From Streptomyces venezuelae (GTDB lineage: Bacteria; Actinomycetota; Actinomycetes; Streptomycetales; Streptomycetaceae), in contig NZ_CP029192.1 in the NCBI RefSeq assembly GCF_008642315.1, positions 8,494,001 to 8,558,000 on the forward strand: a DNA stretch of 64,000 nucleotides. Reading direction: 5' to 3'. The translations under genes and the position numbers were made by a program. Below the pieces are notes generated by a model that made no database searches, was not told the origin of the DNA, and saw only the letters and a list, made by a program, of their open reading frames with translations. Positions 18,739 to 21,712 of the stretch are shown here, piece after piece (positions within the stretch are counted from its first letter, which is position 1; the number at the start of each line of letters is the position of its first letter).

Positions 18739-19160
18739 GAAGGATCTCCAGGGCGAGACGTGGACACATTCCGCCGGAACGGCATTCAGACCTGGGAGGC
18801 CTTATTCCATTCCGGTGTGAAGGGCGACGGCGGCCGCCGCGAAGGGGCGGTGCGCCGTAGCGCAATCCGAGCGGTGCGCCGGTTCACATGCGGCCCGGCT
18901 CGGGACGAGTAAAAACACTAACACCCCAAAACCGCTGGTCGGGGCCGTGAAAAACAAATCTCGGCACATCTGTCGAACGGCTTGACTTTTCGCTCCCTTT
19001 CCTAGGCTGCCGACTTTTGATGACTTTATGGATTCCACTTGCATTTTCGCTGCGGCTGTGAGCAATGGAAAGGACGGTGGGGGTGCTTGCTGTGCTCACA
19101 CTTTTCACGAAAAGGCAACTCGCGCTAACGTGCACCCTCTGCATCGGAATGGGGGAGACA
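18739..19160. other. divergent intergenic region, AT-richer
   Basis: 422 bases without a convincing gene between the DHA2 exporter and the monooxygenase fusion. The stretch 18900-19030 is distinctly AT-richer than its surroundings and holds a candidate promoter at 18982-19008. The long leader (about 145 bases) after that promoter has no recognisable riboswitch. Confidence 0.5.
18982..19008 (+). promoter_or_regulatory. candidate sigma-70 type promoter for the monooxygenase operon
   Basis: TTGACT at 18982-18987 and TAGGCT at 19003-19008, with a 15-base spacer (short). It fits the HrdB-type -10 consensus TAGRRT loosely. Confidence 0.35.
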
Positions 19161-20408
19161 GTGGCCATCGACATCGGGGTGTTCCTGCCGTTGCTGTCTG
19201 CGGAAGGGCAGGGGCAGGCGGGGGAGTCCGTCGCCGCGGCCCGCAGGGCGGAGGAGCTCGGGTTCGAGTCCGTGTGGGCCGGCGGCCATCTGACGGGGTG
19301 CGTGCCCATGCTGGACCCGACGGTCACCCTCGCCATGGCCGCGGCGGCCACCACCCGCGTCAAGGTCGGCTACGGAGTCCTGACGGTCCCCGTCCACCCC
19401 GTCGCCCACCTCGCCCAGCAGCTCCAGAGCCTCCAATTCCTCTCCGAGGGGCGGCTGTTGGTCGGCGCCGACACCGGAGGGAGCGCCTGGGCGCAGTGGC
19501 GCGGCGGGTCGGCGGACTCGCCCGTGTGGGCGGCGGCCGGCGTGCCGTACGAAGAGCGGCACGAGCGGACGGACCAGGTGCTGGAACAGCTCAGAAGCCT
19601 GCTCGTCGCCGTCCCGGCCGAGGTCGGCGACGCCGCCGGGCTCGCTCTGCGGCCGCGCGTCAACTGGCCGCCGTTCCTCATCGGCGGCGAATCGGACGCG
19701 GACCTGCGGCGCGCGGTCCGGCACGGCGCCTGGTTCCCGAACCTCGCCTCTCCGGCGTACGTCGCCCGCGTGCTGTCCCGCCTGGCGCGACTGGGCGCCG
19801 AGTCGGGCCGCGTCGTCCGGCCCGCGGTGAGCGTCGCCGTCCCGTCCACCCTGCTCGCCCCCGGAACGCGCGCGCGACGCGAACCGCCCGCCCCGACGGT
19901 GCTCCGCCGCTACGGCATCGACGCCGAACGGGCGTCCGCGATGCCGGTCGACGGCACACCGGAGCGAGCCGCCGAGAAGATCGTCGAGTTCGCACGCGCA
20001 GGAGTCGACAGGCTCGTCCTCAGCTTTCCCGAGACCGACTGGCGCACCCAGTACGAACTGGCGGCCCAGGCGGCCGAGTTGGCGCGGCGCGAGCTTCCGG
20101 TGCGGCGGACCGCCACCGCCGGAAACCAGACCGGCTGCGGCGGATGGGCCAGGGTCACCCTCGACCTGGAACGCGAGCCGGCCGCGTACGCCTTCCTCAA
20201 CTCCCTCGGCACGGACGTCCTCGACGCGAGTCTCGCCACGGCCCTGGAGGAGGGGGTCCGGGAAGCGCTCGCAGGAGAGGCCCGTACCGTGCGGGTGCAC
20301 CGCGCCTGGGTGCACGAAGTCGACGCGAACGAGTGGGTGTTCCGCGAAGCGGGCCGCAGGGCCGTCACCGAGGCGCTGGCCGCGGAACGCGCGGGCGGGC
20401 AGCCGTGA
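19161..20408 (+). CDS. luciferase-like monooxygenase fused to an EF-G domain IV-like module
   Basis: 415 residues from the GTG at 19161 (GGGGGAG lies 3 bases upstream; an ATG is at 19149). Residues 1 to about 310 form an LLM-class flavin oxidoreductase: IDIGVFLPLL, ARRAEELGFESVWAGGH, LGSL-type block LQSLQFLSEGRLLVGA, and the end GVDRLVLSFPETDWRTQYELAA. The last ~100 residues do not belong to that family. GCGGWARVTLDLEREP, ASLATALEEGVREALAG and VHEVDANEWVFREAG read like elongation factor G domain IV (compare YHxVDSSExAFxxAG from general knowledge of EF-G). The stop overlaps the GTG of an MFS gene. The reaction is unknown. Confidence 0.72.
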   Translation: MAIDIGVFLPLLSAEGQGQAGESVAAARRAEELGFESVWAGGHLTGCVPMLDPTVTLAMAAAATTRVKVGYGVLTVPVHPVAHLAQQLQSLQFLSEGRLLVGADTGGSAWAQWRGGSADSPVWAAAGVPYEERHERTDQVLEQLRSLLVAVPAEVGDAAGLALRPRVNWPPFLIGGESDADLRRAVRHGAWFPNLASPAYVARVLSRLARLGAESGRVVRPAVSVAVPSTLLAPGTRARREPPAPTVLRRYGIDAERASAMPVDGTPERAAEKIVEFARAGVDRLVLSFPETDWRTQYELAAQAAELARRELPVRRTATAGNQTGCGGWARVTLDLEREPAAYAFLNSLGTDVLDASLATALEEGVREALAGEARTVRVHRAWVHEVDANEWVFREAGRRAVTEALAAERAGGQP

Positions 20409-21712
20409 CCGACCCGGCGCCGACCACCTCGCTGTGGAGCAACCGCAACTACCGCATCTTCGTCGTCATCCAGACGCTCTCCGCCCTCGGGGACTCGTTC
20501 TCGTTCGTGGCCATCCCGTTGCTGGTGCTGCACAGCACCGGATCGGTCGTCCAGATGGGCCTAGTCACCGGCCTGACCGGCGTCGCGTCCATCGTCACGG
20601 GCCTCTTCGCCGGTGTGATCGCCGACCGGTTCGACCGGCGCGGGCTCATGATGCTCTCCGACATGGCGCGCTGCCTGCTGTACGGGCTCATCCCGCTGGT
20701 CTGGCTCTTCGCCACTCCGATGTGGCTGATCTACACGGTCGTTCCGCTCACCGGCGGCTTCGCGATGCTCTTCCAGGTGACGTACGTGACGGTGGTGCCC
20801 GCCATCGTCGAGCCCGGCCAGATCATCAGGGCCAACGCCCACCTGTACGGCTCCTACGCGGTGGCGACGGTCGGTGGGCCCGCCCTCGCGGGCCTCGTCG
20901 CGGCGGCGTTCGGCCCCGTGGCCGCGCTAGGGATCGACGCCGTGACGTTCGCCGTGTCGGCCGCCGGGCTCCTCCTCGTCCAGCTGCGGCCGACCCCGCG
21001 GCCTGCCGGGAGTGAAGGACAGGGCGGCCCCGGACGGGGCGCCGAACGCGGGCGCGTGCGCGACGAGTTCCTCGCCGGCTTCCGCTTCCTGTGGGCGCAC
21101 CCCGTGCTGCGCCCGCTCACCGTGCTGCTGTCCCTGTTCATCTTCCTCACGCACGGCATGACCGACGTCATCATCTTCCGTGTCAAGGAGGACCTGGGCC
21201 ACGGCGACGGCACGGTGGGCTATGTGCTGAGCGCGGGCACCGTCGGCACGTTCCTCGCCTCCTTCCTCGTCGCGCGTCTGCGCAAAGGCCTGGGGTTCGG
21301 GCCGAGTTGGATCGGCGCCGTCACGCTCGCCGGTGTCGCCGTCGCCTGCCTCGGGCTGACCGGGAGCGTGCCGGTGATCGGCGCGCTCTCGGCGGCCATG
21401 CTGCTGGCCACCGGCGTCGCCGGGATCTGCTCCATGTCCCTGCGACAGGAGGTGACGCCGGGTCACCTGCTCGGGCGGGTCACCGCCGCGTTCTGGACCA
21501 CGCACTACTCGCTCGGTCCGCTCGGAGCGGCCGCCGTCACCGCGGCCGCGGCCGGGTTCGGGGTGGCCGAGGTGTGCCTGGCCGTCGGCGCGGGCGTGGT
21601 GTGCGTGGCGCTGAGCGGGACGCTGACGGGGATCGTGCGGGACCGGTCGCCGGAGGCGTCGCTCCGTACGGCGGAGGCGCAGTCGCCCGAGTCGGCGACG
21701 GAGACCGCCTGA
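20405..21712 (+). CDS. MFS transporter (enterobactin-exporter-like)
   Basis: 435 residues from a GTG that overlaps the fusion-gene stop (GTGA). LWSNRNYRIFVVIQTLSALGDSFSFVAIP is the usual start of the MFS_3 group, and GVIADRFDRRGLMMLSDMAR is its loop 2-3 motif with the Asp-Arg pair. About 12 membrane segments follow. Translational coupling makes it the transport partner of the upstream monooxygenase fusion, possibly exporting its product or a toxic substrate. Confidence 0.86.
   Translation: MTDPAPTTSLWSNRNYRIFVVIQTLSALGDSFSFVAIPLLVLHSTGSVVQMGLVTGLTGVASIVTGLFAGVIADRFDRRGLMMLSDMARCLLYGLIPLVWLFATPMWLIYTVVPLTGGFAMLFQVTYVTVVPAIVEPGQIIRANAHLYGSYAVATVGGPALAGLVAAAFGPVAALGIDAVTFAVSAAGLLLVQLRPTPRPAGSEGQGGPGRGAERGRVRDEFLAGFRFLWAHPVLRPLTVLLSLFIFLTHGMTDVIIFRVKEDLGHGDGTVGYVLSAGTVGTFLASFLVARLRKGLGFGPSWIGAVTLAGVAVACLGLTGSVPVIGALSAAMLLATGVAGICSMSLRQEVTPGHLLGRVTAAFWTTHYSLGPLGAAAVTAAAAGFGVAEVCLAVGAGVVCVALSGTLTGIVRDRSPEASLRTAEAQSPESATETA

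Follow-up and report, generated by a model that had tools for sequence, protein, structure and literature searches.

An EF-G domain IV-like module fused to a luciferase-like oxidoreductase and coupled to an exporter gene in Streptomyces venezuelae

Why would a domain of elongation factor G (EF-G) stand at the end of a redox enzyme, with an exporter gene beginning on its stop codon? A gene of Streptomyces venezuelae raises this question within the window, by which we mean the whole 64,000-nucleotide stretch of DNA analysed here (positions 8,494,001-8,558,000 of an 8.94-Mb single-contig genome). An earlier note, made from the letters alone, had proposed a self-protection or biosynthetic unit in which a monooxygenase carries a ribosome- or translation-like domain beside an efflux pump, and as a whole that interpretation is partly supported. 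Our preferred reading, with a probability of roughly 0.55, is that a detached and rebuilt EF-G domain IV serves as a small binding module on a luciferase-like monooxygenase (LLM) class oxidoreductase and positions its reaction, with enzyme and exporter together modifying and exporting a small molecule.

A rare fusion gene and its overlapping transporter

The 415-residue fusion protein is read from an intact single frame that opens with GTG at 19161, just downstream of GGGGGAG, and closes with a stop codon at 20406-20408; translation could also begin at an in-frame ATG at 19149. The N-terminal and C-terminal parts have GC3 values of 0.92 and 0.89. The features are collected in Table 1.

Table 1. 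Features of the fusion gene and its transporter partner (positions in the window).
Feature	Position	Strand	Evidence
Two-domain protein, 415 aa: LLM oxidoreductase + EF-G domain IV-like module	19161..20408	+	Pfam, homologue search, AF2
LLM (PF00296) domain, residues 1-312	19161..20096	+	PF00296 E 5.3e-31; Foldseek PDB matches
EF-G domain IV-like module, residues 313-415	20097..20405	+	Pfam, PDB profile search, AF2, HMM, hhalign
Tip loop I, QTGCGGW (residues 323-329); Cys326 replaces GGxGQ of EF-G	20127..20147	+	Domain alignment
Tip loop II, HEVDA (residues 385-389); aligns with HEVDS of EF-G	20313..20327	+	Domain alignment
GTGA: MFS start overlaps fusion stop	20405..20408	+	Sequence; equal 4-base overlap in L221, L222
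MFS transporter, 435 aa; nearest NCBIfam TIGR00900 (H+ antiporter), under its cut-off	20405..21712	+	MFS_1 E 3.4e-28

Up to about residue 310 the protein is the normal luciferase-like monooxygenase that had been described. Pfam PF00296 (Bac_luciferase) covers residues 6-226 at 108.6 bits, above its gathering cut-off of 27.9, and NCBIfam points to LLM families, of which TIGR03619 is nearest (E 1.6e-24, under its cut-off); among the 25 of 35 NCBIfam matches listed, the protein falls below every cut-off. When the whole-protein AF2 model was compared with the PDB by Foldseek, all 50 matches listed of 1656 were LLM-type flavin or F420 enzymes, a fold similarity that predicts an FMN- or F420-type LLM oxidoreductase. 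The window protein shares the whole barrel with this class and retains 16 of the 18 positions at which 28 unfused kin show 90% conservation or more. It differs by its C-terminal module, by its sub-cut-off NCBIfam scores and at position 104, where Gly has become Asp in 10 of 12 fusions (G104 is kept in P0013 and P0014). LLM proteins lacking the module exist at 39-48% identity, and those that were aligned end before it (e.g., P0015, 48%). Unfused kin at two loci (L225, L226) adjoin ketosynthase-like, N-acetyltransferase-like and FAD-monooxygenase-like genes, named by eye. LimB of S. roseosporus is also a Streptomyces LLM monooxygenase, likened here by description; it is of the MsnO8 type, and the accessible part of its report describes an N-terminal domain that is enough for activity and a protein substrate, with no link to EF-G in that part (PMC10709465).

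A search of 5.8 billion proteins with the fusion returned 43 matches, which included the window's own frame (P0002) and 12 further proteins with the same C-terminal module (P0003-P0014; eight Streptomyces-named), so the fusion does occur in relatives. Compared with the window, their C-terminal parts are 67.6-84.5% and their N-terminal parts 52-83% identical; the annotation of P0012 omits the first 100 residues, and the P0011 module contains a shifted stretch. Among the genus genomes, 7/392 match the fusion at E 1e-40 and three of them (G000, G081, G163) reach into the module; the layout is rare in the genus (3/392 genomes). A pattern scan over genome contigs from 84,980 species, a method limited to close relatives, gave three fusion loci, all in Streptomyces. 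The fusion matched 13 plasmid records, none covering 80% of the query, and the matches listed lie within residues 19-297.

In three pairs of fusion genes, dN/dS of the enzyme part and the module was 0.32 and 0.21 (window vs. L011), 0.42 and 0.39 (window vs. L012) and 0.42 and 0.39 (L011 vs. L012), values that indicate purifying selection on both parts (0.21-0.42). The L012 frame is broken at about residues 57-85, and L013 has a shifted stretch in the module and a broken MFS frame, perhaps assembly errors. Two of the fused proteins (P0013, P0014) have lost H43, G102 and P165 of the enzyme part, which are kept in 27-28 of the 28 unfused kin; relative to the window, their LLM part is 52-53% and their module 74-75% identical. 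Loss of such residues in the enzyme part while the module is as similar as elsewhere suggests that the module has a role of its own. Three short Streptomyces-named proteins (P0046-P0048) resemble deletion remnants of the fusion gene, P0046 having lost most of the barrel with the module intact. They suggest repeated loss; we draw no conclusion from them, because a protein search sees in-frame remnants only.

The product of the downstream gene matches PF07690 (MFS_1) at 99 bits, above the gathering cut-off of 33.4, and the H+ antiporter model TIGR00900 at E 6.4e-56 with 190.3 bits, below the cut-off of 319.6. The 4-base GTGA overlap between fusion stop and MFS start recurs in all three resolved loci (window, L221, L222), which bears out the proposed coupling of the exporter. 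As for the MFS neighbour being conserved, this holds at those three loci, but relatives of the exporter also stand without the fusion. Such relatives occur at E 1e-110 in 26/256 genus genomes, and the three nearest fusion-free ones (G123, G179, G205; 64-71% identity) have no gene like the window LLM within 3.8-8 kb upstream and 7-9 kb downstream, which we count against the binding-module reading. The gene order LysR, sigma factor, YCII, MFS-DHA2, fusion, MFS, MMPL, lpdA is common to the window and L011, and parts of it are also found in L012 and L013. By eye, the genes beside the fusion gene carry no biosynthetic cluster signature, a further point against that reading of the fusion as a binding module on a biosynthetic or detoxifying enzyme.

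Homology of the C-terminal module to EF-G domain IV

The resemblance of the last ~100 residues to EF-G domain IV is faint at the level of single family models. PF03764 (EFG_IV) meets residues 325-407 of the window protein at E 0.014 and 15.6 bits, under the Pfam cut-off of 24; seven of nine other fusions scanned gave 13.2-19.0 bits, and P0005 and P0013 gave no match. NCBIfam elongation factor G models match the same residues at E 0.001. A profile of 12 module sequences found 19 PDB sequences at E up to 10 (best E 0.13), of which 17 were EF-G (one an L9/EF-G chimera), one TetQ and one a sigma factor; taken alone, this search is weak evidence.

Comparisons with controls were clearer. An HMM of 32 EF-G domains scored 8/8 fusion modules at 21.1-29.9 bits, against 6.9 bits for the best of 2100 shuffles (14 domains x 150; 468 were reported at all) and 3.2 bits for the best of 67 reversed domains. 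When the eight fusion domains were aligned with the 32 EF-G domains by hhalign, the result was 96.46% (pairwise E 9.7e-10; 31% identity across 86 columns), compared with 0.23% for reversed EF-G and 0.38% for LLM barrels; over all sets, reversed EF-G controls gave 0.10-0.41%. These hhalign sets, like the tree below, hold 8 of the 13 fusion rows, the window included. With a 40-row alignment that contained 12 fusions, AF2 reached pLDDT 85.1 and pTM 0.87 (76-96 in ten-residue blocks of 311-410); the single-sequence model was poor (pLDDT 41.8). The predicted module has strands at 314-321, 329-336 and 344-347, a helix at 356-370, a strand at 376-384 and a helix at 391-410, i.e., beta-beta-beta-alpha-beta-alpha, which we take to be the order of EF-G domain IV. 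A BFVD structure search with the whole model gave no clear match to the module. Profile comparison and structure prediction on the whole protein, checks of the kind that had been proposed, both agree with the resemblance, and together indicate that residues 313-415 are homologous to EF-G domain IV.

The module shares with EF-G domain IV this strand and helix order and the loop II motif HxVD (7/8 fusions). It differs in that GxGQ is replaced, a Cys is gained and the stretch between the first helix and the fourth strand is shorter. Neither a GTPase nor any other EF-G domain was found in the fusion protein, either by Pfam or in the listed 25 of its 35 NCBIfam matches.

Free-standing relatives, their neighbours and their tips

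The module is not a one-off fusion. Over 395 related genomes, a module profile found three fusions and EF-G-length frames and, with better scores than these, small open frames. A second profile (A4), made from 20 small free-standing proteins plus the window module, matches 384/384 genus genomes because it picks up frames of EF-G length too (E 1e-15 to 1e-22 as a rule); many of its listed matches outside the free-standing proteins are frames of ~690-760 residues, the length of EF-G. All 21 of its rows match EFG_IV at E up to 1 (best 1.2e-10, 41.7 bits vs. the cut-off of 24).

Among the matches listed are at least 59 free-standing domain IV proteins (63 rows minus the fusions L011-L013 and an EF-G piece, L166), which a regular expression sorts into 26 of type A, 15 of type B, 12 of type C and 6 of type D. 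Three type D proteins belong to genomes of other genera (G520, G621, G652); the remaining 56 are spread over at least 53/384 genus genomes, or at least 56/384 with the three fusion genomes. PF03764 scores lie over the cut-off in L044 (41.7 bits), L059 and L171 (35.1), L163 (55.8) and L168 (26.9) and under it in L155 (19.8) and L164 (15.9). In one open frame (L163:4567-5403) two copies stand in tandem (E 2.5e-15 and 1.6e-23); in L169 and L170 the second copy fell short of significance. Six free-standing pairs had dN/dS of 0.23-0.40. By hhalign, types A-D align with EF-G at 97.8-99.6%, and the fusions with types A, B and D at 97.7-98.8% but with type C at 19% only. The fused module is related to this family of free-standing proteins, which is centred on Streptomyces.

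The window's genome itself also carries a type C protein of 129 aa (C1:505,394-505,780; L230:4995-5381), for which Pfam gave nothing at E 0.1. As a query it matched 19/251 genus genomes at E 1e-10, and in 12 of these the match reached E 1e-37 or lower. One query each of types B and C (n=2) matched six Streptomyces plasmid records, annotated as 'hypothetical protein', and two unannotated places in multi-megabase Embleya and Nonomuraea records; one type A protein had no match in phages. In two plasmids (L227, L229), a viomycin and an aminoglycoside phosphotransferase gene are found 3.7 and 2.9 kb, respectively, from the domain IV gene; the third plasmid locus that was opened has no such gene. 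In the S. cyaneofuscatus plasmid copy (L227), the long annotated frame of 284 codons seems to have an overcalled start, because the usual one, MTTETRTFPPR, lies inside it.

Neighbours differ by type (gene calls were made with a simple script, and one or two representatives supplied the family names). In 16/26 type A loci (L044, L045, L048 and 13 others), the domain IV gene follows a methylmalonyl-CoA mutase-type gene at a distance of 10-87 bases, with DUF3817 and MarR genes beyond. Type B lies 62-69 bases downstream of a dimethylargininase gene in 7/15 loci (L055:4858-6105, L058, L059, L060, L063, L181, L184), preceded in four of these (L055, L059, L063, L181) by a formyltransferase gene. We rejected a translation operon for type B, as this formyltransferase scores under the fmt cut-off. 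No type C locus shares an immediate neighbour with another (0/12). Two other type B loci (L054, L188) have a common neighbour family 28 and 53 bases from the domain IV gene; at L188 this neighbour matches a model of O-acetyl-ADP-ribose deacetylase (macro domain). At L164:4509-5448, the domain IV gene is 58 bases from an F420-dependent PPOX-class oxidoreductase-like gene (sub-cut-off) on the same strand.

In a quick maximum-likelihood tree of 99 domains and 133 columns, 44 of whose 96 inner branches are open, all 32 EF-Gs fall on one side of a branch (SH-aLRT 98). Support is 97 for type A, 95 for B, 99 for C and 99 for the eight fusions; type D does not hold together. A branch (81) sets type A and EF-G apart from all other domains, so the tree fits one or several detachments; if the root is put within EF-G, free-standing and fused domains group together. 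The free-standing row nearest to the fusions is the tandem L163 (87), flagged as a long-branch join. An EF-G-like paralogue of ~680-710 residues with the motif HVKQ.GGAGQFAHVV, present in some Streptomyces and one other genome of the class (L032, L034, L036, L040, L128, L132), forms its own clade in this tree (99).

The tip of the domain has been rebuilt. Loop I reads GxGQ in 32/32 EF-Gs and in 0/67 of the free-standing and fused domains aligned, and a Cys stands at its tip in 57/59 free-standing and 8/8 fused domains and in no EF-G (0/32). The loop II His, presumably the counterpart of E. coli H583, is kept in 43/59 free-standing proteins and 7/8 fusions, and the loop II Asp in 47/59 and 8/8; type C has the His in 1/12 and the Asp in 0/12. 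The EF-G segment GxLAGYP is absent from type A and the fusions. Since the tip Cys is missing in 2/59 and the His in 16/59 free-standing proteins, a single catalytic centre for all types is unlikely on these alignments.

Possible roles of the fused module

How might these parts work together? In the preferred reading, domain IV would have been detached from the GTPase and the other EF-G domains, its tip remodelled with Cys in loop I and mostly His and Asp in loop II, and the resulting module joined to an FMN- or F420-type LLM oxidoreductase. Around Cys326, His385 and Asp388 the module would form a tip that binds a ligand or macromolecule and positions the LLM reaction; the redox-modified small molecule would then be exported by the co-translated MFS protein. 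Such an LLM and MFS pairing could serve detoxification or tailoring.

An alternative that we consider unlikely has the module still docking at the ribosomal decoding site or close to it. In that case the free-standing proteins would protect the A site or serve as stress factors, and the fusion would either carry its enzyme to the ribosome or, jointly with the exporter, protect its own cell from an inhibitor of the A site. The His kept at the tip of most fused and free-standing domains would fit docking, as the E. coli EF-G replacement H583K stalls translocation according to the accessible part of its report (PMC4490557), and so would the two plasmid genes near phosphotransferase genes, but the domains have lost GxGQ throughout, type A and the fusions also GxLAGYP, and type C mostly the His (11/12) and wholly the Asp (12/12). 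There is no G domain, and no translation gene was recognised among the neighbours scanned. Translocation and classical ribosomal protection need the GTPase in those families, so neither is expected of the fusion. According to the accessible part of one study, domain IV is an innovation that belongs to the EF2 family, and its tip loops are the means by which Tet proteins dislodge tetracycline, a precedent for docking (PMC4342817). Ribosomal protection proteins of the Tet(M)/Tet(O)/OtrA type have a full EF-G domain structure that the fusion lacks. We did not favour descent from such proteins. The A4 profile, which matches every genus genome, misses a GTPase of the window's own genome (L003; matched by PF03764, with no A4 match at E 1 or E 1e-4) that we take to be protection-protein-like. 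Of the ribosome- or translation-like domain that had been claimed, the homology stands, and nothing ties the module to the ribosome. Targeting of the ribosome is possible; a self-protection role for fusion and exporter would be a guess.

It is doubtful, too, that the module is a structural or dimerisation appendage without a ligand, whose conservation reflects folding of the LLM part. Module dN/dS (0.21-0.39) near that of the enzyme part (0.32-0.42) in the three pairs would be expected of an appendage, as would the existence of module-free LLM proteins at 39-48% identity. Yet the enzyme part diverges in P0013 and P0014 while the module is conserved, the free-standing kin are under constraint without any LLM domain, and the tip Cys is conserved.

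We regard as rather improbable a broader proposal, in which the EF-G decoding-site domain, detached from its GTPase by actinomycetes, became widespread as an effector, alone, in tandem and fused to an enzyme, with a Cys/His tip that still acts at the ribosome or on tRNA; in the window it would carry the LLM there, beside a coupled exporter. Chance resemblance, a frameshift or an assembly or gene-joining artefact is scarcely credible: although the Pfam EFG_IV match is sub-threshold and the high-GC DNA leaves 5/6 frames open across this stretch, the 12 other fused proteins, purifying selection, the shuffle and reverse controls and syntenic loci in other genomes rule against it.

The domains themselves are known, but the free-standing family and the fusion architecture are apparently unreported. 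Among the papers listed by searches of 5.39 million open-access articles, judged by title and start of abstract and with most subscription papers outside the set, we found no description of a free-standing EF-G domain IV protein or an LLM fusion, nor of a system with the LLM, domain IV and MFS layout, in line with the earlier note. In the sources consulted, domain IV appears only within complete translational GTPases. A GTPase-free family on chromosomes and plasmids, with several types and two further architectures, would show domain IV to be a module that can evolve independently. Should the fused module bind ribosomes, it would represent a new way of bringing an enzyme or protection factor to the decoding site; otherwise it would be a clear example of a translation domain turned to other chemistry.
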